NCBI GenBank assembly: GCA_905181965.1
Contig: CAJIZY010000003.1
Span: 124,001-188,000, forward strand
Length of the DNA: 64,000 nucleotides
Source of the DNA: Akkermansiaceae bacterium
Lineage (GTDB): Bacteria > Verrucomicrobiota > Verrucomicrobiia > Verrucomicrobiales > Akkermansiaceae
Direction: 5' to 3'
The position numbers and the translations under genes are program-made. The notes beneath the pieces were generated by a model. The model did not search any database and had not been told where the DNA came from. It saw nothing but the letters and a program-made list of their open reading frames with translations. Shown here in pieces: positions 2,111-14,758 of the stretch (positions within the stretch are counted from its first letter, which is position 1; each line of letters begins with the position of its first letter).

Positions 2111-3946
2111 CTACTGAGGAATTTCCTCAGAGGAGTTTGTCTTCTTTTTGAGAGTTGTTTCTTGAGCACCATATTTTTTGTCGGTGAGTGACTTCAGAAA
2201 ACTGATGAGGGCAGCCTGATCACTGCCCGAGAGGGCGATGCCCCCTTTGGGGTGTTTGGCGAGATTGGGATCGAGGGTAGAAGTGCGGTGGATCCCCTCG
2301 TTATAATGCTCAATGACTTCTTCGAGTGTCTGGAACCGACCATCGTGCATGTAGGGCGCGGTGAGAGCGATATTTCGGAGGCTTGGCGTAGAGAATTTTC
2401 CTCGATCAGTTTCTTTCCCGGTGACTTTCATGAGCCCAACATCAGAAAGAGAGGGCTTAAGTCCATTGTTGTGAAATTGATGATCGCTGAAGAAGGAGCC
2501 TCCGTGGCAGTGAAAGCAGTCCGCTCCATATTGCTGGCTACGCGGTTCATACTCAGTGAAAAAGAGTTCCATACCGCGTTGCTCGGCTTCGCTGAGTTTC
2601 GCTTTTCCAGACATGGCCCGGTCGAATTTGGAATCGTAACTCGTAAGAGTGAGTAGGAAATTTTCGAGAGCGAGGGCGATTTTTTCTTCGGTTACGGGAC
2701 CTGGCCCGAAGGCATTTTCGAAAGCGCGCGATTCGTTTTTTTGAAGCTGCGCCACAACGGTTTTGAGATCGGAGGCCATTTCACGATGATCTTGGATCGG
2801 TTGAAGGACCTGGTCACGGAGAGATTTGGCCCGTCCATCCCAGAAAAAGGAGGATTTCCAGGCAAGGTTGAAGAGGGGCATGGAGTTTTTGTCACCCTCT
2901 TGATCGTTAATGCCTTTGGAAAATTTGAGTCCATCGGTAAAAGCTTTGTCCTGATGATGGCAGTTCGCGCAAGAAATAGTGCCATCTTTAGAAAGGGATT
3001 TATCGTGGAAGAGTTTTTTACCAAGAACGACCCGTTGAGTGAGGAGAGGATTGTCGCGAGGAAGAAGAGGCATGGGGAAACGGCGACTCATCTTCAAGGG
3101 AAAGGGAGTGTAGTTTTTTGGGAGGAAAAGCGGGGTTACCGCGGCGAGGGGAACTTCGCCGGGAGGGTAGGAAATTCCCCTGACAGAAAATGCGCTTTTT
3201 AGGTTCGCAACAAGGGCGCTCGAGATCGCATCGCCGGGATGGGAGTGGGTGGAATTTCCGTCCTTACCGAAAGAAAGCGCGCGAGGCTGGTTCAGGAGTT
3301 TTTTAAGATCAAAGGAAAGGGCGAGAGCGGTGTTATTCTTAATTCGGAAGTTAGCAGCAAGCTGAACGCGGGAGAAGTTTTGATCGTTGGCGAGGTGGTA
3401 TACAAAGCCGTTCAATTTTTTTGGAGAGCTGCGAAACTGTCCTTCGAAAGCGAGAAAGATGTAGCCTCCAGCCCAGTCCCAATGAAGGTTGTTGAGGTTG
3501 GGATTGAGCGGATGATCGGCAGGGTATTGGGCCGGATCTCCATGGTTTTCTTTTTTGGGAACTCCGAGGCTGAAACGAAAAGACTTGTAGGTGCCGGGCG
3601 GAACCTTCGTCAGAGTAAAGGAGGTGCGGCGGGTCGAGGCGTTGATGAAGGCATATTGTCTAGGAAGTTCTTGCCAGCTGCCGTTTTCGTTTTGCAGGGC
3701 AGGTTGGCTAATTAGATAAGAGAGGCGCGAGACAGATAGGGTTTCAGCGCTCTCATACTTCAGAGAATTAAGTGTAAGGGGTTGGTCCCCAAATTGATGC
3801 GAAAGATCGATGCGAAGAGTGCCTGCAAAAAGAGGCATGAGAAAGATGACTAGGAAACCAGCGGTCTTAATAACACAATCGCCCGCCATCGAGAAAGGCC
3901 TAAGGCCGACCCCGAAGACTGACAGGATTGCGTGGAGATTTTTCAA
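2111..3946 (-). CDS. MbnP-like domain fused to MbnH-type diheme cytochrome c peroxidase
   Basis: A 611-residue exported protein that joins two normally separate partners. Residues about 42-240 resemble MbnP, the periplasmic copper-binding protein: a beta-rich domain with the conserved block LHWDWAGGY (154-162, W156 and W158). Residues about 285-590 are a MauG/MbnH/CcpA-like diheme peroxidase, with heme sites C326-A-N-C-H330 and C477-F-H-C-H481 and the family block APYMHDGRF near the C-terminus. In methanotrophs MbnH oxidises a Trp of MbnP to kynurenine, creating a copper site; by analogy this protein could modify itself (inference). A second ATG at 3889 (MAGDCVIKTAGFL) gives a cleaner signal peptide and may be the true start. 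It starts 15 bases after the YHYH-sulfatase gene, so the two are very likely cotranscribed. Confidence 0.88.
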   Translation of the reverse strand: MKNLHAILSVFGVGLRPFSMAGDCVIKTAGFLVIFLMPLFAGTLRIDLSHQFGDQPLTLNSLKYESAETLSVSRLSYLISQPALQNENGSWQELPRQYAFINASTRRTSFTLTKVPPGTYKSFRFSLGVPKKENHGDPAQYPADHPLNPNLNNLHWDWAGGYIFLAFEGQFRSSPKKLNGFVYHLANDQNFSRVQLAANFRIKNNTALALSFDLKKLLNQPRALSFGKDGNSTHSHPGDAISSALVANLKSAFSVRGISYPPGEVPLAAVTPLFLPKNYTPFPLKMSRRFPMPLLPRDNPLLTQRVVLGKKLFHDKSLSKDGTISCANCHHQDKAFTDGLKFSKGINDQEGDKNSMPLFNLAWKSSFFWDGRAKSLRDQVLQPIQDHREMASDLKTVVAQLQKNESRAFENAFGPGPVTEEKIALALENFLLTLTSYDSKFDRAMSGKAKLSEAEQRGMELFFTEYEPRSQQYGADCFHCHGGSFFSDHQFHNNGLKPSLSDVGLMKVTGKETDRGKFSTPSLRNIALTAPYMHDGRFQTLEEVIEHYNEGIHRTSTLDPNLAKHPKGGIALSGSDQAALISFLKSLTDKKYGAQETTLKKKTNSSEEIPQ

Positions 3947-3961: not shown

Positions 3962-6900
3962 TTAGGGATTGGTAATAATTTGAGTCGAGTTGAAGGAGCG
4001 AGCACCACCAGTGTTTGGATTGTTTGGAAAGGTGACGGTGGCAGAGGTAAAAGGACCGCCTGTCCCGGGTGTCAGACTACATTTTACCCAGTATCTTTGA
4101 GCAGTCCCAGAGCTGTCTTCCCGAGCGACAAAGGAGGCTGATTGCCCATCGATTATGATCGCGGTCGGATTAACGGAAAGGTTATTGGGAGGGCTAGTGG
4201 GGCCTGTTCGGTTGGGGAGCTCGATGTAGATCGTATCGAATGATCCTGCGGGTGAGTCAGAGTATCCACCACCAAGAGCAAGATCTTTGGCAAGAAGGTG
4301 ATCGTAAGCAGATTGAGCTTCATTACTGAGAGGAGAAAGGAGAAGATTGGTTTGCTCGTTTGCATCGCTCGGAAGGTTGTAAAGTTCAAAGATGGGCGTG
4401 TCGCTGATGTCATCTTTATCTCCAAAGATGATGAGCTTGTAGTCTGGGTGGACATCGGAGATGAGGGCTCGGCCATTGCCATTATTGTCGCCGAATTTCT
4501 CCGCGATAACGCACCTGCTCGCTGTATCAATCCCATGAAAGATGGGGAGAAGGCTTTGAGAGTGGGTCGAAACTCCAACCGTGGCGGCACTTTTATCAAT
4601 CCCTCCAAGGTCGAGGATAGTGGAGAAGAGATCTACGCAGTGGACAAGTTTGTCAGTCGCTCCAGTGATACGGATATCAGGACCAACCGCAAAAAGTGGA
4701 ACATGAATTCCGCCTTGGTAGAGATCGCCCTTGGCATGTCCATTCCCAAAAGGAGCCTGGACGACTTGGCCGGGAGTCCCATTGTCTCCGATGACGATAA
4801 CGTTTGTCCGGTTAAGATCTACGACGGTGAGAAGGCGTCCAATCTCGGTATCAAGTGCTTCAAGAGCACGAATGTATTGATCGCTATTCGAGGAGCCACT
4901 GGTGGAATACCCGCCCACTGGCGCGAGATTAGAAGGAGGGCTATGGAAGGGGGTGTGGGGAGCATTAAAGGCCATCCAGAGAAACCACGGATTGGTTCCT
5001 TGAGAGACAATAAAATCGGTTCCTTCATTCACTTGGTCAGTGGTAGTGTAGCTAGTCACTTCCTCAGTGGTGGTTCCATTTTCTAGTTTATCCCAAAGAG
5101 TATAGTTTGTGACACCACCTCGGCGGATCCCGGCAAATTCTGGCCATCCACCACGGACTGAGGGCGCATTGACAGTTCCTCCTAAGTGCCATTTCCCGTA
5201 GGAAGCCATCTCGAAGCGAGAATTCTGGGCAGTAAAAATTTCGGCCAGCGTCAACTCGGATGTGGGTAAAATCGAGGAAGCAGAGGGATTCCCAACCGTG
5301 TGCTCAAAGGGGTGGCGACCAGTGAGGATGGTGGCGCGAGTTGGGGAGCAGAGGGGCTGAGAGTGGCATCGGGTAAAGCGGAGTCCTCGCCTCACAAGGG
5401 CGTCCATGTTAGGAAGTTTGGGGAGGGCTATCCCAGTGGGATTATCGAAAGGAGAAGCGTCAATCCCCCAATCATCGATAATCAGGAGGAGGATATTTTT
5501 TTCCCCTCCACTAGAGAAGAAATTCTCTGAAAGATGCGTGCTATTAATGACAGCTTGATGGTCGCCATCGGGTAAGGTGGCACTATTAAAACAGAGGGTA
5601 AGAATACCGACGGAGCGATCGTACGATGAAATGTTAGCGAGGCTGATATCTTGCCCCCCAACCTTGAGAGAGTTAATATTTTCTGGAAGAGGGGGATTAG
5701 CTGAGAAGCGGAAAGTATAAGTGGTCGTGAAGGTATTATTATCAACGAATCCACTATCATCATAGGGCGCAACAGCGGCCTTTTTGACCCGGTAAAAATT
5801 ATTCGAAAGAACAGCTGTCTTATCGCCAACAACGAGTTTATCCTGGTCAGGATTGACACTGGAGAGGGTGGTCTTCCAGCTGCCGCCTCTGAGCGAAGAT
5901 GATGTTTCTAATTGGTAGGAGCCACCTTCCACTGCCTGCCATGTGAGGGTGATCTCGTCATCTCCAGTCTGGATAGTGTCAATGCTGGAGCCCTTTTCTG
6001 CACCGCCTTCAAAGAGGAGCGTGACAGGCTCAGTGATAGAGTTGACGTTTCCTCCGGCGGGAGTGCCGTAGTATTCTCGCCCCATGGCATAGGGAAACAC
6101 TGGAGTGCCATCGGCTGCGATCGTTATAAAGTAAGCATAGGTGCCACCGGGGAATTCAGGGGTCACACATCGGCGCCCATTGTGCTGATCCAAGTCGCCG
6201 GAATTTAGAAAGTCGTAGTCTTCAATATAACGTCCAAGAACGTAGGCGTTGTTGACAGGCGGGCCCTGTTGATTGGCAGAAAGATTGGCATTTCGATTTT
6301 GAAAAGTTGCAGCCCAAGCGGGAAGTGTGGCACGTCCCATAGTGGCAAGATTCGTGGTTCCATTTGTCCCATTGCTTTTCTGATAGCCTGAAACCATTAA
6401 AATGAGCATATCATCAAGGGAGGCAGACACAGCATAGGGGCCGTAGATCGGAAGGCCATCAGCAGCCCAACCGAGAATGGGCGAGTGGTAGGAGTTGAAA
6501 TTTTCGGTGTAAGTATTGGTCTCGAAATCATGATCCACGCTATCGCCAAGCTGGTGGCGAAGGCCAGGAGGGTTCGCGTGGTAGTGGTAGGTAGGGCCGG
6601 CTTGGTGAGCATTCCCTGCATCGAAAGTGACCGATTCATTGACATAGGCATCGCGATTCCAGATGCCATCTCCGATGATGCCATTGTTTGGCCTAGAGTC
6701 TGTAGAATTACTGTTCGAGTAAGAAAAAGCATCCCGAGAATCAAACATGGAGACACCATTGACGTAGCGTCCGATCGTTCCGAGACTTGTGCCTATTTTG
6801 TTGGTGGGGATAGTCGGGGTCCGAGGGATACGGTAAAGAATGGAACGGTTGCTTGGGTAGTTTGGAAAAAGATTGGTTTTGGCGGCATTGAGATACCATG

Positions 6901-7237
6901 GCCCCATCAAATGGGAAGCTAGCCCAGTCGTTCGGATATAGACCCAATCATTTGAATAAGAAATCTCATGAATATCGGCATAGGTCGGTAAGCTTTGATT
7001 TCCTCTTCCCCGAAACCAAGTGACGACAGATTGGTTTGACGCTTCGGCTTCTTTCGTCTCGTAGAGTCGAGCGTATTGGCCAGAATTATCAGTGGACCAA
7101 GATGAGAGGCGCGGATCAGCGGAGAGAGCGGCAGGAAGGAAGAGGAACAATATGCCTAGGCAATACCTCTTTAGACCTTGTGGTGTTCCACCAGAAGCTA
7201 GGCAGCTGACAACTGTATTTAGATTAAAATTTTTCAT
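3962..7237 (-). CDS. YHYH-domain and sulfatase fusion protein
   Basis: A 1091-residue exported protein. Residues 1-40 are a signal peptide. Residues about 45-400 are a YHYH domain (motif YHYH at 217-220, with GWAADGLPIYGPYA after it), a family of unknown function rich in aromatic and His residues. Residues about 425-485 match the Tyr/Trp-containing module found at the C-termini of several secreted proteins here (ITLTW, YQLETSSSL, FYRVKKA). A bridging beta region (490-575) follows. Residues about 578-1010 form a type I sulfatase: metal ligands D588-D589, catalytic motif C630-S-P-T-R, ASYGKWHLGG, and GDNGTPG. The tail is low-complexity beta. It is upstream of, and 15 bases from, the MbnP-MbnH gene. 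I do not know a characterised protein with this architecture; substrate and role are open. Confidence 0.9.
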   Translation of the reverse strand: MKNFNLNTVVSCLASGGTPQGLKRYCLGILFLFLPAALSADPRLSSWSTDNSGQYARLYETKEAEASNQSVVTWFRGRGNQSLPTYADIHEISYSNDWVYIRTTGLASHLMGPWYLNAAKTNLFPNYPSNRSILYRIPRTPTIPTNKIGTSLGTIGRYVNGVSMFDSRDAFSYSNSNSTDSRPNNGIIGDGIWNRDAYVNESVTFDAGNAHQAGPTYHYHANPPGLRHQLGDSVDHDFETNTYTENFNSYHSPILGWAADGLPIYGPYAVSASLDDMLILMVSGYQKSNGTNGTTNLATMGRATLPAWAATFQNRNANLSANQQGPPVNNAYVLGRYIEDYDFLNSGDLDQHNGRRCVTPEFPGGTYAYFITIAADGTPVFPYAMGREYYGTPAGGNVNSITEPVTLLFEGGAEKGSSIDTIQTGDDEITLTWQAVEGGSYQLETSSSLRGGSWKTTLSSVNPDQDKLVVGDKTAVLSNNFYRVKKAAVAPYDDSGFVDNNTFTTTYTFRFSANPPLPENINSLKVGGQDISLANISSYDRSVGILTLCFNSATLPDGDHQAVINSTHLSENFFSSGGEKNILLLIIDDWGIDASPFDNPTGIALPKLPNMDALVRRGLRFTRCHSQPLCSPTRATILTGRHPFEHTVGNPSASSILPTSELTLAEIFTAQNSRFEMASYGKWHLGGTVNAPSVRGGWPEFAGIRRGGVTNYTLWDKLENGTTTEEVTSYTTTDQVNEGTDFIVSQGTNPWFLWMAFNAPHTPFHSPPSNLAPVGGYSTSGSSNSDQYIRALEALDTEIGRLLTVVDLNRTNVIVIGDNGTPGQVVQAPFGNGHAKGDLYQGGIHVPLFAVGPDIRITGATDKLVHCVDLFSTILDLGGIDKSAATVGVSTHSQSLLPIFHGIDTASRCVIAEKFGDNNGNGRALISDVHPDYKLIIFGDKDDISDTPIFELYNLPSDANEQTNLLLSPLSNEAQSAYDHLLAKDLALGGGYSDSPAGSFDTIYIELPNRTGPTSPPNNLSVNPTAIIIDGQSASFVAREDSSGTAQRYWVKCSLTPGTGGPFTSATVTFPNNPNTGGARSFNSTQIITNP

Positions 7238-7419
7238 AGGTCTTAGTTTTGGCCGAGTGGTTGGGGCCTTAGGAGCGTCGCTTTAAGTTGTGATGAACGA
7301 TAAATTTTGCCAGAGCGGGACGAGATTCAAAGGTGAAGTCCAAACGATCCCACCAAAAAAATCCTGCTTTTAATGTCATCATAAAGTGCGCGCGAAGCCC
7401 ATCCTGCTAAAGCACAATA

Positions 7420-8949
7420 TTAATCTTTGGGTGGTCTTGACTCTTCCCGGGGCGCCTGACGACGCAGGGGGCGACCACCGCGACCCTCGATTTTCACTCC
7501 TTTGCTCTTCCCTGCGAGCTGAGCTTTGACGGACCTGATACGCCGTTTAATAAAGGGCTTAATGGCAAATATATCGCGCTCAACAGCGGAGTTCTTTCCG
7601 GAGCTATCGCCTTCAATCCCCATACGAAATGCTAATTGCTCTTTTTTGTTAAGATACGGTTTGAGGGCCTTAGTGAAAATATCTACTCGCTCATAAAGAT
7701 TTTTCTCAGTGAAGGAACCCAGCATGAGTTCGTTCAACTTTTCTCGGTAGAGCTTGGAAAAATCCTTGTGAGTAAAGAGACGTTCCAAGAGAGGGATATT
7801 AGAGGTCCAAGGCCGCGTGATATCCCACTCGGCGAGCTTCTCGGGAGTCGTCCCCATGGTGAAGGTTCCAAAAGCCTCGTTAACATCCCATGGAAAAAGA
7901 CGGACCCTATTATCGGCCTGATCAACCATCAAATAGTAATTGTGAGGTGCTCCAATGTAGCTGTCTAAACTGGCGAGGAGGCTAGTGGCGGCGAGGTAGC
8001 CTTTGCGCTGCCGCTCCATTTTTTCGCCAATCTGGTTGAAAAACTCAGTGCCGGACACCTCCCCAATGAGTCTGAGAAAGTCACCGAATTGGGTGATCTG
8101 CTCCTTATTATCTTCCCCTTCCTTGATGTTGAAAACCTCCTTATATTGTTCGATCTCTTCACCGGGGTGTTGCCAATTAGGAGAGCTCTCAGGTTTCATG
8201 AGGAGGCTATCCTTCGATTTTTCACCGTACTTGCGCTCCAGATAGCTTTCATCCACCTGCTCGATCAAAACATAGATGCCCAGATTTTTTTTCTTTAGTT
8301 CACCCTCAATGGAAAGGCTCACCTTGGCCCAACCCGAGCCCGGTGTCGGGATTCCAGCTGCTTGGTAGACCTCGTAAGCGAGCTTCTCCTTCATGAAGGC
8401 GGGATCTAAATAGGAGTTCGACAAATTGAATTTGGTCCGGCCGTGAAGTTTTTGTCCGGTGACAAAGCGGTTGGTGTCGATTTTCAGAGGTCTTTTGAAT
8501 CCATCGGAAGAGAAGCGGTAAGAAGAGTTTCCTTTAAATCGAAGACCGGCGTCTCCAAATTTTTCGCCATCAATCGTGATGTCTGCTTTGACATATTCGA
8601 AGCTCGTTCCAGCTCCACCTCTTCTCCCACCACCACCGGGAGGTGGCCCATCAGGGCGCCGGGACCGACCACGTGGCGGGCCGTCGGGAAGAACTCCTCC
8701 TCGCGGCGAGCCACCTCTTCCTCGTTCGTTTTGAGCAGGTTGCATGGACTCCCAGGCTTCCTTGGTGAGGGAAATATCGATTTCCACGACGTGATTGTCT
8801 TCGTAAACGGAATTCCAGAAGTCGTTGGATTTATCCTGATCAGGGGAGGCCTTTGTCTCCTTTCCGAATACCGGGAGCAGAGGGAGGGAGGTTGCAGCGA
8901 GAACGATCGGGATTATTGATCGGTTTGAGAGGAAATAGAGTGCTTTCAT
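7420..8949 (-). CDS. Exported CotH-family protein kinase-like protein
   Basis: A 509-residue CotH kinase family protein. CotH of Bacillus is an atypical protein kinase that phosphorylates spore-coat proteins; PVC homologues are exported and their targets are unknown. A signal peptide covers residues 1-29. The CotH domain runs about 48-470 with the typical N-terminal block VVEIDISLTKEAWESM, FKGNSSYR, LNLSNS-like FNLSNSYLDPAFMKEKLA, and RLFPWDVNEAFGTF, which carries the Asp expected to bind metal. An Arg/Gly/Pro-rich insertion (76-114) and a basic tail (RGGRPLRRQ) are unusual and may be disordered or bind polyanions. It lies 183 bases upstream of the YHYH-sulfatase gene on the same strand, so the three genes may form one unit. 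Confidence 0.9.
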   Translation of the reverse strand: MKALYFLSNRSIIPIVLAATSLPLLPVFGKETKASPDQDKSNDFWNSVYEDNHVVEIDISLTKEAWESMQPAQNERGRGGSPRGGVLPDGPPRGRSRRPDGPPPGGGGRRGGAGTSFEYVKADITIDGEKFGDAGLRFKGNSSYRFSSDGFKRPLKIDTNRFVTGQKLHGRTKFNLSNSYLDPAFMKEKLAYEVYQAAGIPTPGSGWAKVSLSIEGELKKKNLGIYVLIEQVDESYLERKYGEKSKDSLLMKPESSPNWQHPGEEIEQYKEVFNIKEGEDNKEQITQFGDFLRLIGEVSGTEFFNQIGEKMERQRKGYLAATSLLASLDSYIGAPHNYYLMVDQADNRVRLFPWDVNEAFGTFTMGTTPEKLAEWDITRPWTSNIPLLERLFTHKDFSKLYREKLNELMLGSFTEKNLYERVDIFTKALKPYLNKKEQLAFRMGIEGDSSGKNSAVERDIFAIKPFIKRRIRSVKAQLAGKSKGVKIEGRGGRPLRRQAPREESRPPKD

Positions 8950-9390
8950 GGGACTGAAAACCGAAGAATACTGACTGAAGATGAATGCCCCGTGAACGAG
9001 TCCTCACCTTTTCCGCCAAACCGCTCTGGGCAAGAAGATCCCTCTTTATATCCCGTGAGCCAAAGTAACAGCCTTAGCAGCTATCGTAGCCAAAATCACT
9101 TAACTCCCGGATAAGACAGATATGAAGAAGCAAGTCGATTGCTTATTTCCTCGCAATCATACAGTAATTAAGAAAGGTAACCTGAAGGAACATTCTAGAC
9201 CGTAAACTAAAAGCGCATCACAAGAAACAACGCAACCAGCAAGCTGACATAGAACCAAGGACAACCATGCCCACGCTCTTCGAAATTATTCACCCCATTT
9301 TTGTAACTTCCACGGGTGTTGTTGTCAGCAACTGAACTACCCTTTTTAAACAGCAAATTCCGTGGCCGTTTCCTACAGCCAAAATAAGAT
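8950..9390. other. Long divergent intergenic region, no gene seen
   Basis: The 441 bases between the CotH gene and the MurB-like gene hold no supported ORF; the small reading frame on the minus strand (9207-9434) overlaps the MurB start and has no recognisable features. Base composition shifts here from the surrounding GC-balanced DNA to AT-rich DNA that continues to about 12 kb. Near 9337-9362 a CTACCC-TTTTTAAACAGCAAATTCC segment resembles a shortened copy of the 28-base intergenic motif, 29 bases before the MurB ATG. Confidence 0.5.
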
Positions 9391-10230
9391 ATGAAGATAC
9401 TGAATATCAGAACAAAAAAATTTTCCTGGTACAAGACAGATCATGAATTTGCTAATGTTATCGATATAAAATCGGCTGAAGATTATTATGAGGCGATAAA
9501 ATATGCACAGAGTAAAAACCTTAGGTGTTACACATTGGGTAATGGCTCAAACACATATTTCCGAAAGAAAAAGATTTCTACTGTAATTCTCCGAAACTGC
9601 TTGCCTGACTTCATCAGACCGGCAGGAGAGGATCTTTTTGAAGTCAGTTCGTCAACGAATGTCCCAAAACTTCTCCGGTATCTCTACTCTGAGGGGAGAG
9701 AAGGGCCATTTAATCTGGCATCTGTTCCTGCGACCGTTGGAGGAGCAGTTGCCATGAATGCTGGCGGTGGGAAAACTGAGGGCATTTTTATCAGCAGATA
9801 CCTCAAAAGCGTAAGTTATCTATGTAACGGTGAGCGTATCGAGGCAAAGGTCTCTGAACTGGAAATGGGGTTTCGAAAAAGCCTATTTTCAGAGCGCCGA
9901 GATTGTATTATTATTTCAGCGACATTTTTGTTTCCTCAGAAAGAGTTTATTTCCAATCCAGTCACGGAGCGTTTGGATTGGGCAAGAGAGCATCAAGACT
10001 TAAAGATTCCAAATTGTGGCTCTGTCTGGAGAGCTTTCTGCTTCCCATTGTTGCGCTTAGCTGAAAGCCTTTTCAGAACGTCACCTGCGTATTTTTCTAA
10101 AAAATCCTTGATTTGGATTTCAAATAAATCGTCAGACCATAGACATATCTTGAAAATATTAAGAGTGGTTCGATTTTTCCATTTAGTGACACTCAGAAAA
10201 TGCGAACACGAGATCAGAATTGTTGATTGA
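9391..10230 (+). CDS. Divergent MurB-like FAD-dependent enolpyruvyl reductase
   Basis: A 279-residue cytosolic protein of the UDP-N-acetylenolpyruvoylglucosamine reductase type. The FAD-binding loop is G50-N-G-S-N, and the second FAD segment is SVPATVGGAVAMNAGG (111-126). The catalytic Ser corresponds to S211 in NCGSVWR and the catalytic Glu to E274 in CEHEIRIVD. The Tyr that contacts substrate in E. coli MurB is Phe here (F161 in MGFRKS), and the usual Gly-rich C-terminal segment after GSV is replaced by a hydrophobic one. It is therefore probably not the housekeeping MurB but a paralogue. The AT-rich sequence and the flippase downstream suggest a role in making a modified surface sugar, for example a lactyl-ether sugar (speculative). 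Spacing to the flippase is 193 bases. Confidence 0.75.
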   Translation: MKILNIRTKKFSWYKTDHEFANVIDIKSAEDYYEAIKYAQSKNLRCYTLGNGSNTYFRKKKISTVILRNCLPDFIRPAGEDLFEVSSSTNVPKLLRYLYSEGREGPFNLASVPATVGGAVAMNAGGGKTEGIFISRYLKSVSYLCNGERIEAKVSELEMGFRKSLFSERRDCIIISATFLFPQKEFISNPVTERLDWAREHQDLKIPNCGSVWRAFCFPLLRLAESLFRTSPAYFSKKSLIWISNKSSDHRHILKILRVVRFFHLVTLRKCEHEIRIVD

Positions 10231-10423
10231 AATCTCGATAGTTTCTGTGGTGATCGGTGATGGCCAAATAGCAAAATGGGTCGATACCTCTCGGCGAAAT
10301 ACGGGTCGACGTCATAGAGCTGAAGCAAAACGATCGATGAGAAGTAAGGAAAAGAGCATAACTGACTTCGTTATTCGCCGCACTTGCCTCACCTGAAAAT
10401 TTAATGCAGGTTTTTAAAGTCAG

Positions 10424-11983
10424 ATGTTAGCTTCTAAACGTCTATTGATAAATACAAGCGTCACATACTGTCGCAGTATTTTTGCGGTCGCATTGGGGCT
10501 TTTAAGCAGTCGTTGGATTCTTGAGGGTCTGGGACAAGTAGATTTTGGTCTGATGGCTGTGGTCGGGGCGCTAATCGGATTTGTAGAATTCCTAAATAAT
10601 ATTTTGGCCAATGCCGCTGCACGTTTCCTTGCTTTTTCGATTGGTAAGGACGACGAAGGTGAGACCCAACGCTGGTTCAATGTCAGCTTATTTCTACACA
10701 TAGTAGCACCCTTAGCTTTAATCTCGATTGGTTGGCCAATCGGAGAATGGGCTCTAGACCATTTTATAAAGATTCCCGATCATCGGTTAGTTACCGCGCA
10801 CTGGGTCTTTCGTTTATCTTTGATATTAGCATTTATAAGCATGAGCTTTGCCCCATTTCGCGCGATGTTTATTGCTAAGCAAGATATTGCAGAAATGGCG
10901 ATTTGGGGGATCGCGGGAAGTGTCGCAAATTTCATCTTGGCCTATATTGTCTGGCACTATTCTGGAGATCGTTGGCTGTTCTTCTCGATTTGTTCAGTTG
11001 CGATTTCTTCTTCACTCGTCTTGATGCAAATCGGGCGTGCTTACAAAAAATATGAGGAATGTCGCATCCAGTTGAACCTTTGGTTAGATTGGGTGCGTTT
11101 TAGGAAATTACTCAGTTTTTCAGGATGGAATCTATTTGGCGGATTAGGTCAGCTCCTGAGAGGCCAAGGAATTGCAATCTTATTGAATCGTTACTTCAAC
11201 CCGGTCAGCACGCCGGGGGTAAATGCGTCATACACAATCGGCAACACAGTATCGTCTTCCACGCAGCAATTATCGAGTTCATTAATAGGAGCGTTTAGCC
11301 CTGAAATTAATACAAATGAAGGACGAGGAGATCGAGAAAGAATGCTTATACAAGCAAACCGAGCTTCCAAGTTTGGCGCTTATTTAACCTTGTTATTTGC
11401 AATCCCGCTCATTCTAGAAATTGAATACGTCCTAGATTTGTGGCTAGTTCAGCCACCCGTATATGCAAGCGGCATGACATCCTTAATTTTGTGTACTTTT
11501 ATAATCGATCGCTTGACTGTGGGACAAATGTTGGCTGTTTCAGCTCGGGGAAAAATAGCCGGATATCAAATTATGCTGGGCGGCTTCCTACTACTAACCC
11601 TTCCAGTGGCTTGGTTGTTTTTACATCTTGGCTTAGGGCCAATATCCGTTTGCTGGGCTTATCTTATTACCATGTCGCTATGCTCAATTGGCAGAGTATT
11701 TTGGGCTAAGCGTTTAGTCCAATTTTTGCCATCCATCTGGATCAAAGAGGTGTTTCTCCCCCTAATTTTCCTAATTATCGTAAGCGTCTTTACTGGGCGA
11801 ATGAGTCAGTTATTTTTAGATGCGTCGCTAGGGAGGCTTTCTTTGGTCGTCGCAGCTACTTTAATGACCAATATCGTTTTAGGCTGGAACTTACTCTTAA
11901 ATATAAATGAACGGAAGAGTCTTTTAGCCGCCCTTCAGAGTTTACTTAAGGGGATCTTCAAATTAATTAGGCCCCAAAAATGA
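10424..11983 (+). CDS. Polysaccharide flippase (Wzx/MATE-like membrane protein)
   Basis: A 519-residue integral membrane protein with about 12-14 hydrophobic segments and short polar loops, typical of oligosaccharide-lipid flippases of the MOP superfamily. Family-like features are the N-terminal GLLSSRWILEGLGQVDFGL block and the periodic hydrophobic segments through AGYQIMLGGFLLLTLPVAWLFL. It would move lipid-linked sugar units across the inner membrane for O-antigen or exopolysaccharide assembly. It stands alone apart from the MurB-like gene: no glycosyltransferase or polymerase gene lies beside it. The DNA is AT-richer than that of the flanking genes, which is consistent with horizontal acquisition. 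Confidence 0.85.
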   Translation: MLASKRLLINTSVTYCRSIFAVALGLLSSRWILEGLGQVDFGLMAVVGALIGFVEFLNNILANAAARFLAFSIGKDDEGETQRWFNVSLFLHIVAPLALISIGWPIGEWALDHFIKIPDHRLVTAHWVFRLSLILAFISMSFAPFRAMFIAKQDIAEMAIWGIAGSVANFILAYIVWHYSGDRWLFFSICSVAISSSLVLMQIGRAYKKYEECRIQLNLWLDWVRFRKLLSFSGWNLFGGLGQLLRGQGIAILLNRYFNPVSTPGVNASYTIGNTVSSSTQQLSSSLIGAFSPEINTNEGRGDRERMLIQANRASKFGAYLTLLFAIPLILEIEYVLDLWLVQPPVYASGMTSLILCTFIIDRLTVGQMLAVSARGKIAGYQIMLGGFLLLTLPVAWLFLHLGLGPISVCWAYLITMSLCSIGRVFWAKRLVQFLPSIWIKEVFLPLIFLIIVSVFTGRMSQLFLDASLGRLSLVVAATLMTNIVLGWNLLLNINERKSLLAALQSLLKGIFKLIRPQK

Positions 11984-12199
11984 CGGCTCTTTCAGCTAAA
12001 CTAATAGCCTCAGATAGCGGTATCGTCTTGGTGGAGGAACTGATGATGAAGGTGATATAACATGCGCTCATCCCGCTCTTTTTTCCACACCTTCCTCTCT
12101 CTAACATCTTCTTTGGTGCTAAAAGCACCCTGAGCTGACTTTACGAAAAGAAAATCCGACGACGCCCAATCAAGGGAATCAACGCTACGCATTACCGCC

Positions 12200-13138
12200 C
12201 TACTCAAATCGGCGAACTTGTAGAAACATTCGTCCTACGATCAATCCCTCTCCTTCGACAAGATAGCTGCCCCCCTCGGGGCCCGCTATTATGCTATCAT
12301 CCAGTTCGACCCAAGTCTCCAGATCAGAAGACCGCCAAACTTGGTAAATCTCTCCATCCTGCCCATTCCAAGTGATCGTCATTCCATCTTCAGCAACCGT
12401 CACCGTCGCAATCTGGAGTTCGGGCTTCTCCGTTGGCTTGGAAAGAGCTGTGTCTATTCCTGCCCAAAAACGGAGTCCTGTGTCTAGGTTGATCGTTGCG
12501 GTGTCTCCAAGGTTAGCAATCGCTGCGAGGTTCGTATTATCACCATTTCCTGCAGCAAAGTTTCCTCCGAAGATACCAAACCCAGCCGCGTTTGCTCCAC
12601 TCCAGTTATTCTGAGTTCTGGCAACTTCAGTCGTATCGACAGTGGTTCCACTACTGGCTCCATCAACAAAGAGCTCCCATTCGATTTCGCTGGCATCGTA
12701 TGCCCACACAACTTCGACCTCTCCCCCTGAAACTTGCGCATCTGTAAGTTGATGAGTTACCACTCCCAAGGCATTTCCACTATTAGTTGAGTGGTGCACG
12801 CTCAAAGTAGCTGCAGCTTGATTATAGGAAACGCTTGTTCCAATTGTTGCTCCACCGCTCTCCCAGATGACTCCGTTAGTTGCACTATCACCTGCGTTGA
12901 AATCAATCGAGACCGCGAAGGTAGCGTCCTTTGTAGTAACCGCCTCAACTCCACCAACAGTCCGATTTTGATACGTCGGGCTCTGCCCGATCGTATTGAC
13001 AGTCTCGGAAGGCTCCCCGAGATCAGCCAGAGCACTCACACTGACAGTTTCCGATGAAGCAGCGCCAGTGAGAAAGGCACTTAGAGCAGCGGTTCCCAGA
13101 CAGACTGCGGAAAGAAGAGAAGAACAGATGTCTTTCAT
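12200..13138 (-). CDS. Secreted beta-sandwich protein with shared C-terminal module
   Basis: A 312-residue exported protein of unknown function. Residues 1-28 are a signal peptide ending TGAASS. Residues about 30-235 look like a LamG/concanavalin-type sandwich (FAVSIDFNAGDSATNGVIWESGG, ELFVDGASSG, LRFWAGID). Residues about 243-312 are a module (MTITWNGQDGEIYQVW, RSSDLETWVELDDS, then FLQVRR at the end) that recurs in proteins at 3962, 17121, 21371, 30826 and 37023. The composition is acidic and low in Lys and Cys, as for many verrucomicrobial surface proteins. No operon partner is seen; the gene is convergent with the flippase. Confidence 0.82.
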   Translation of the reverse strand: MKDICSSLLSAVCLGTAALSAFLTGAASSETVSVSALADLGEPSETVNTIGQSPTYQNRTVGGVEAVTTKDATFAVSIDFNAGDSATNGVIWESGGATIGTSVSYNQAAATLSVHHSTNSGNALGVVTHQLTDAQVSGGEVEVVWAYDASEIEWELFVDGASSGTTVDTTEVARTQNNWSGANAAGFGIFGGNFAAGNGDNTNLAAIANLGDTATINLDTGLRFWAGIDTALSKPTEKPELQIATVTVAEDGMTITWNGQDGEIYQVWRSSDLETWVELDDSIIAGPEGGSYLVEGEGLIVGRMFLQVRRFE

Positions 13139-13378
13139 TACACAAGGTTAACAAAATCGCAGAGCCCAAAGCAATCTGACTTTTCGATAATCATTAAACG
13201 ACGGATGCTCAGGACGGAAGAACTCTTCCCACAAAGATAATCCTTGATCAGGTTTGCATTAGAATTCGGCTATTGCAGGGTGGGCAGACACTATTTTAAA
13301 TTCCCTCCTTTGACTCCCGATACCTCGGCCAGACCTGATAATAAAGGCAGACGGTTTTCTATCCAAATTTCATAACTT

Positions 13379-14758
13379 ATGCGTTTTCTACTCTTCTTTG
13401 CTTACTTCACCTCTCTCGCCGCGAAACCGAACCTTCTCCTGATCACCGTCGATGATATGAATCGTGACTCGATTGGCTCCTACGGCTGCTCAATCAAGAA
13501 TATCACTCCAAACATCGACCGACTTGCCGCTGAAGGCATTCGCTTCGACCGTGGCTTCGTGAACGTCGCGATCTGTATGCCTTGTCGTGCTGTCCTGATG
13601 ACCGGCCGCTATCCGCAAACCAGCGGCGCACTCGGGTTCGACAAAATTAACCCTGAAGTGCCCAGCCTCCCCGAGGCGCTTGATAAGGCCGGCTATTACA
13701 ACAGTCTGATCGGCAAGGAAATCCACGTGGTGCCCTCTCGTCACAAAGCCTTCCACCGAATCGACAAACAAAAAGATCTCGGCGGAGGCCGCAGTGCCAG
13801 CGCCTATGCCAAGGCTGTCCGTGCTTCAATCGAAGAAGCCAATGACGCCGACAAACCATTCTTTATCATGGCCAACGCGGCCGACCCGCACCGTCCCTTT
13901 GCCGGGGCGAAGGGCGATTCCTTCAAAAAGATCCCGTTCCCACGAAAGATCGATCCAAAACAAGTTCCGGTGCCCGGCTTCCTTCCAGATCTTCCCGAAA
14001 TCCGAACCGAATTGGCAACCTATTTTCAATCCGTCGCTCGTGCCGATCAGGTGGTTGGAGCAGTCCTCGATGAGTTGGAAAAAAGCGGCCAAGCCGACAA
14101 CACCTTGGTCCTCTTCCTGAGCGACCACGGCATGCCCCTGCCCTACGCGAAGACCAACTGCTACCTCGCCTCCAACATCACCCCCTTCATCCTGCGCTGG
14201 CCCGGCCACATCGAATCCGGATCAACCGACAAGAAGAATTTCATCAGCACCATCGACGTTGCTCCGACCTTCCTCGCAGCCGCCGGTATCGAGAATCTGG
14301 AAGGCGCCAACGGCCTTTCCCTGCTCCCTCTTATGAAGGGGCTCAAACAAGCAAATCGTAATCGGGTCTTTACCTTCCATGAGCGCCCCTACTCCCGGAA
14401 GCACCTGCCGATGCGCGCCGTCAATGACGGCAATTTCCTTTATATCTGGAACGGCTGGTCGGACGGTAAGACACAGTTCCGCAACGAGTCGATGAGCGGC
14501 CTCACTTTCAAGGCGATGAAGAACGCCGACGACCCGAAGATCCGCGCCCGCGCCGATTTCTACCTCCATCGCACCCGTGAGGAACTCTACGACCTACGAA
14601 AAGACCCCTATTGCCTGAAAAACCTGCTCGATGAACCCGGCGGCAAGCAATCCGGTCGAGTCAGCGCAATGACCAAGTCCCTATGGCACTGGATGAAGGA
14701 CGTCGATGATCCCGATTTGGAGCTTTTCCAAAAACAAGTCGAGCTAGCATTGGACTAA
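13379..14758 (+). CDS. Exported type I sulfatase with a CMPCR active-site motif
   Basis: A 459-residue sulfatase of the iduronate-2-sulfatase-like type. A short signal peptide (MRFLLFFAYFTSLAA) precedes NLLLITVDDMNRD, whose Asp pair binds calcium. The catalytic Cys is C66 in C-M-P-C-R, which fits the C-x-P-x-R formylglycine signature but has a second Cys at the fourth position. ADPHRPF and LFLSDHGMPLPYAKTN are further active-site blocks. The C-terminus carries ELYDLRKDPYCLKNLL, typical of the family. The gene is monocistronic and followed within 25 bases by a copy of the 28-base intergenic motif. Confidence 0.93.
   Translation: MRFLLFFAYFTSLAAKPNLLLITVDDMNRDSIGSYGCSIKNITPNIDRLAAEGIRFDRGFVNVAICMPCRAVLMTGRYPQTSGALGFDKINPEVPSLPEALDKAGYYNSLIGKEIHVVPSRHKAFHRIDKQKDLGGGRSASAYAKAVRASIEEANDADKPFFIMANAADPHRPFAGAKGDSFKKIPFPRKIDPKQVPVPGFLPDLPEIRTELATYFQSVARADQVVGAVLDELEKSGQADNTLVLFLSDHGMPLPYAKTNCYLASNITPFILRWPGHIESGSTDKKNFISTIDVAPTFLAAAGIENLEGANGLSLLPLMKGLKQANRNRVFTFHERPYSRKHLPMRAVNDGNFLYIWNGWSDGKTQFRNESMSGLTFKAMKNADDPKIRARADFYLHRTREELYDLRKDPYCLKNLLDEPGGKQSGRVSAMTKSLWHWMKDVDDPDLELFQKQVELALD

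Follow-up and report, generated by a model that had tools for sequence, protein, structure and literature searches.

A fused MbnP and MbnH/MauG-like di-heme gene conserved in Verrucomicrobiota and associated with a YHYH-domain partner

The gene described here, which lies in a window of 64,000 nucleotides from an Akkermansiaceae genome, encodes an MbnP domain and an MbnH/MauG-like di-heme domain on a single chain, and this fusion (MbnPH) is the usual, conserved form in the Verrucomicrobiota, where it makes up one clade, and no peculiarity of the source genome. It is accompanied by a conserved gene for a YHYH-domain protein, which the first-pass annotation of the window had overlooked. The best explanation for these observations, and one that we regard as fairly probable, is that MbnPH is exported, matures its own kynurenine/Cu(I) site and acts jointly with the YHYH protein. 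What is new here is a fused and conserved variant of the known MbnP/MbnH pair, together with its link to YHYH; pairs without methanobactin were already known (PMC3621798). In a literature search whose reach did not extend to the main MbnP/MbnH papers, no description of the fusion or of the YHYH link was found.

Architecture of the fused protein

The minus strand of the gene is a single uninterrupted frame of 611 codons, and the plus-strand translation of the same interval is riddled with stops. Candidate starts are the TTG at 3946 and an ATG at 3889 (residue 20), a choice for which relatives (L041-L046, L062) were not decisive. The first-pass annotation had placed MbnP and MbnH on one polypeptide, and both the open frame and the Pfam and NCBIfam domain matches confirm it; the residues it had named (W156, W158, C326/H330 and C477/H481) are all correct on translation. 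The coordinates of the gene, its features and its partner are collected in Table 1.

Table 1. Features of the fused gene and of the adjoining partner gene in the window (all on the minus strand)
Feature	Position	Strand	Basis or remark
Fused MbnP-MbnH gene	2111..3946	minus	611 aa from TTG at 3946; ORF listing and translation, Pfam/NCBIfam
Putative N-terminal export signal region	3824..3946	minus	Hydrophobic segment before MbnP domain, exact start uncertain; from sequence and relatives L041-L046, L062
MbnP domain, residues 42-221	3284..3823	minus	Pfam PF20243, E 3.3e-37
H155-W156-D157-W158 (HWDW)	3473..3484	minus	W156, first Trp of WxW, is the expected kynurenine position; H/W/W invariant in 76 and in 19 sequences
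H184, candidate copper ligand	3395..3397	minus	Alignments; also kept in all unfused MbnPs compared (HLG/HMG/HVG)
H234 in T-H-S, candidate copper ligand	3245..3247	minus	Alignments; invariant in fused family
Inter-domain linker, residues 240-295	3062..3229	minus	Alignment of 76
MbnH/MauG-like di-heme domain, residues 296-592	2171..3061	minus	TIGR04039 (E 1.5e-70), PF03150, 6e1c
Heme site 1, C326-A-N-C329-H330	2957..2971	minus	Sequence; invariant in 76
W369	2840..2842	minus	Alignments; aligned with conserved MauG/MbnH Trp between heme sites
Heme site 2, C477-F-H-C480-H481	2504..2518	minus	Sequence; invariant in 76
Y548	2303..2305	minus	Alignments; aligned with axial-ligand Tyr of MauG/MbnH
Upstream partner gene, 1091 aa, YHYH and sulfatase domains	3962..7237	minus	PF14240 (1.4e-35), PF00884 (2.7e-33); conserved neighbour
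YHYH domain of partner, residues 135-375	6113..6835	minus	PF14240
Sulfatase domain of partner, residues 580-880, with C-x-P-x-R	4598..5500	minus	PF00884

The N-terminal block scores 128.7 bits against the MbnP superfamily profile PF20243 (Pfam cut-off 27) and thus belongs to MbnP, as had been proposed, and not to another family. The NCBIfam model MbnP_like_WxW (TIGR04052) matches residues 105-251 (E 4.5e-12) with 45.9 bits against an equivalog cut-off of 140, and the protein is therefore not filed as an equivalog of that family. By sequence, the MbnP domain alone had no significant match in the PDB, and a profile search reached the sequence of the MbnP crystal structure (7l6g) only weakly, at E 0.27, with W156-x-W158 aligned to WNW; a separate alignment with unfused MbnPs pairs the same motif. 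The Trp that is modified in MbnP, the retention of which had been suggested as a check on the first assignment, is by these alignments kept as W156.

The first Trp of WxW in methanotroph MbnP is reportedly converted to kynurenine by MbnH, and Cu(I) is said to sit there with a His, a Met and solvent, near the kynurenine. The residue two positions before WxW, conceivably the one that supplies the Met of that copper site, is Met in all five unfused MbnPs compared (gMxWxW) and Leu in the fusions (LHWxW; 76/76 proteins in one set and 18/19 in another, both described below). Since Leu-His replaces Met-x, the copper ligands of the fused family probably differ from those of unfused MbnPs and cannot simply be transferred from them. 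Judging from the residues that are conserved, the predicted site is probably of a two-His and kynurenine type (candidates H155, H184 and H234) and not the His/Met/kynurenine site attributed to methanotroph MbnP; by analogy, it may lie nearer to that of CorA, which has two His and a kynurenine.

The C-terminal part, noted beforehand as a two-heme peroxidase, turns out to be MbnH/MauG-like, with MbnH (6e1c) as its best solved match both by sequence (phmmer, E 8e-50) and by fold: a Foldseek search with the predicted model of the fused protein (pLDDT 86) placed 6e1c at the top (E 2e-24), followed by MauG, and its matches include a Y294H MauG entry. Besides two CxxCH motifs, this part contains a match to the CCP_MauG profile PF03150 (residues 304-449, E 3.2e-54) and one to the NCBIfam MbnH family over the whole domain, at 238 bits against an equivalog cut-off of 362.85, so that it is here termed MbnH-like and not filed as a TIGR04039 equivalog. 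Tyr, not Met, occupies the low-spin heme position. Classical peroxidases have a Met where MauG has its axial Tyr294, and the fused proteins, whose Y548 aligns with this Tyr and its MbnH counterpart, hence stand apart from them. Between the two domains, the stretch 239-296 comprises 56-60 residues in all 76 sequences and its P272 and P276 are conserved, which is consistent with a set arrangement of the domains, but the model predicts poorly how they are placed with respect to each other (pTM 0.59).

Conservation and spread in the Verrucomicrobiota

The spread of the fusion was assessed in two sets of genomes. A Pfam-based draw on 289 genomes of the Verrucomicrobiota, the phylum of the source genome, located the MbnP domain in 16 of them, and 19 of the 20 distinct MbnP gene loci in these genomes combine WxW and two CxxCH motifs in one frame. 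From a scan of species genomes, with a pattern that contained HWxW, the best 80 loci were kept; 75 are fused, which amounts to every complete locus (75/75), and the remaining five run off their contig. All kept loci for which the phylum or a lower group is named belong to the Verrucomicrobiota (Akkermansiaceae, Verrucomicrobiaceae, Opitutales, Pedosphaera and others), and the fused architecture is also present in the complete genome of Verrucomicrobia bacterium IMCC26134. That the fusion might be due to chance, or to the joining of two genes in assembly or annotation, is thus ruled out by the relatives and retains virtually no credence: independent assemblies agree at all complete loci, the linker length is fixed, and in a tree of the heme domain the 69 fused rows all fall on one side of a branch with support of 100/99, leaving seven unfused MbnH/MauG-type sequences on the other. 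Unfused MbnP/di-heme pairs were found on plasmid records from Deinococcota and Pseudomonadota.

Residues H155, W156, W158, H184, H234, W369 and Y548, as well as both CxxCH motifs, are invariant in 76 fused proteins. For H155, W156 and W158 this invariance partly reflects selection in the scan set, because the scan pattern itself contained HWxW, but all of the residues and motifs listed are likewise invariant in the 19 proteins of the independent Pfam-based draw, made without motif pre-selection, one of which ends before Y548.

Two disrupted loci were also encountered. What seemed to be a separate MbnP within the phylum (L016/L040, a 153-aa frame), the one remaining locus of the 20 in the Pfam-based draw, was rejected as such, because transposase-like insertions have broken up a fused gene there and its heme end lies 2.8 kb further on; at L040 (G121), positions 9728-13543 hold the split MbnPH gene, two near-identical IS630-type transposase-like ORFs and an adjoining YHYH gene. 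At L034 (G108), positions 5915-10724 hold a YHYH-sulfatase-MbnPH cluster in which YHYH is interrupted by an in-frame stop and the reading frame is lost close to the second heme motif, the mark of either a pseudogene or a sequencing error.

The neighbouring YHYH gene

The stop codon of the partner gene lies 15 bases before the TTG of the fused gene, on the same strand. Of the 80 kept loci, 69 extend 1.8 kb or more upstream. A YHYH gene directly precedes the fused gene on its strand in 45 of the 80 and lies downstream of it in three others, and the chain is of the YHYH-sulfatase type in 11 of the 80. The association of YHYH with MbnPH across genomes is strong: YHYH is present in 16/16 MbnP-bearing genomes, as opposed to 13/273 (over cut-off) of those without MbnP, a co-occurrence with a hypergeometric probability of 9e-19 that is uncorrected for phylogeny and hence for shared ancestry. 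The two genes are adjacent (within ~5 kb) in 12 of the 16 genomes and apart in four. In a Pfam tally that took in 93 proteins neighbouring about 30 of the loci, YHYH (16) was the sole clearly recurrent family, and no copper gene stood out, among the first 25 families listed.

The YHYH domain has invariant His and Asp residues (H101, H108, H110, H141 and D150 of the aligned stretch). Its AlphaFold2 model (pLDDT 82.6) gave no match below E 1 in a fold search against the PDB. YHYH domains have been predicted to hold a metal site, and their phage versions have been suggested to act as metal-dependent hydrolases (PMC7824862).

Other arrangements around MbnPH vary. YHYH copies flank it on both sides at L024 (G216) and also at L052 and L054, and the downstream copy is only distantly similar to that of the window (E about 1e-12). 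Upstream of the YHYH gene, the window harbors a gene for a CotH-kinase-type protein (7420-8949, minus), for which no counterpart was found at other MbnPH loci compared, and a second sulfatase gene (469-2067, plus) lies on the other side of the fused gene. Formation of formylglycine by FGE is copper-dependent, and a copper protein adjoining a sulfatase may for that reason be more than coincidence.

Proposed function and related systems

By comparison with MbnP and MbnH, the fused protein would be exported and loaded with heme at both CxxCH sites, whereupon its di-heme domain, probably driven by H2O2, would oxidise W156 to kynurenine, either in the same chain (cis) or in a second copy (trans). 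The matured site would then bind Cu(I) outside the cytoplasm, and this copper handling might serve the YHYH-domain protein encoded by the neighbouring gene or act in concert with it. The observations behind this reading are the architecture, W156, the heme motifs, the Tyr, the single clade, the phylum-wide conservation and the YHYH partner; set against it are two NCBIfam scores (MbnH and MbnP_like_WxW) under their equivalog cut-offs, the Leu that replaces the Met of all five unfused MbnPs, the low pTM and the lack of a prominent copper gene among the neighbour families listed.

It could instead be the YHYH protein, alone or besides the MbnP domain, that is the main client of the di-heme domain, the MbnP domain acting as a copper-supplying or docking module and MbnPH and YHYH together making up a system of two proteins, with YHYH being modified or loaded with metal by MbnPH. 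The frequent adjacency, the co-occurrence and the invariant His and Asp residues of a domain with a predicted metal site all speak for such a system, but 13 genomes have YHYH (over cut-off) and no MbnP, the genes lie apart in a quarter of the MbnP-bearing ones, and YHYH contains no recognisable MbnP-like WxW substrate motif, so that we deem it unlikely. Membership of the heme domain in the Pfam di-haem peroxidase family, and its WDGRA motif, which is frequent among bacterial cytochrome c peroxidases, would also suit an enzyme that merely removes H2O2; its beta domain, derived from MbnP, would then do no more than position the enzyme or bind a partner, and no kynurenine would be formed. Y548 stands, however, where MauG and MbnH have their Tyr, both outrank classical peroxidases in the fold search, and the invariant WxW and His of the MbnP domain would be left unexplained, all of which makes a simple peroxidase decidedly improbable. 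Returning to the self-maturing protein, a more specific version of it, in which the YHYH protein (sometimes fused to a sulfatase) is a dedicated partner that a kynurenine-copper enzyme of the Verrucomicrobiota loads, modifies or powers, is offered as a speculation with a low chance of being right.

Were the MbnPH-YHYH reading true, YHYH would gain its first function, and a new extracellular copper system unrelated to methanobactin would come to light; the fused gene is a concrete genetic lead to the function of this widespread, uncharacterised domain. With substrate and modifying enzyme on one chain, kynurenine-copper sites would extend to a phylum unconnected with methane or methanobactin, and the heme-driven conversion of Trp to kynurenine would become far easier to study, given one gene, one purification and a cis/trans test.

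Both domains of MbnPH are homologous to those of the MbnP/MbnH pair of methanotroph methanobactin operons and beyond (7l6g, 6e1c), with the same order, the WxW motif and a di-heme enzyme whose second axial position is occupied by Tyr. The fusion differs in being one chain, in its Leu-His instead of Met-x, in H234 and mostly H145, which are specific to the fused form, and, with respect to the methanotroph systems, in its YHYH partner and its lack of methanobactin genes. This last feature, already pointed out for the vicinity of the gene, holds as well for the methanobactin biosynthesis gene MbnB, not found in the source genome (62% complete), and it is an ordinary one, since MbnP/MbnH pairs are conserved "far beyond" methanobactin producers (PMC3621798).

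Kynurenine-assisted Cu(I) proteins paired with di-heme peroxidase-like proteins, the combination proposed here, are also represented in methanotrophs by MopE/SACCP and CorA/CorB, the site of CorA comprising Kyn62, H64 and H114 (PMC3912023). These are separate proteins; although CorA has the two-His and kynurenine site proposed for the fused family, its motif is Kyn-x-His and that of the fusion His-Trp-x-Trp, and a 2013 survey did not find the MbnP sequence markedly similar to MopE/CorA. MauG, which shares the di-heme domain with an axial Tyr and modifies a Trp of its partner in TTQ maturation of methylamine dehydrogenase, acts on a separate protein and yields a cross-linked quinone, not kynurenine.

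An unfused parallel is found on a plasmid of Deinococcus radiodurans (L121, 3941-7454), where genes for an MbnP family protein, a cytochrome-c peroxidase, an unknown 138-aa protein, CopC and CopD stand in a row. MbnP and its di-heme partner follow the same order as in the fusion, with 40% identity in the heme domain, but they are two separate genes with copper-resistance neighbours. The proximity of copC and copD supports a copper role for such pairs, and the split pair suggests how the fusion arose, this collinear cluster being a plausible example of its two-gene precursor type.
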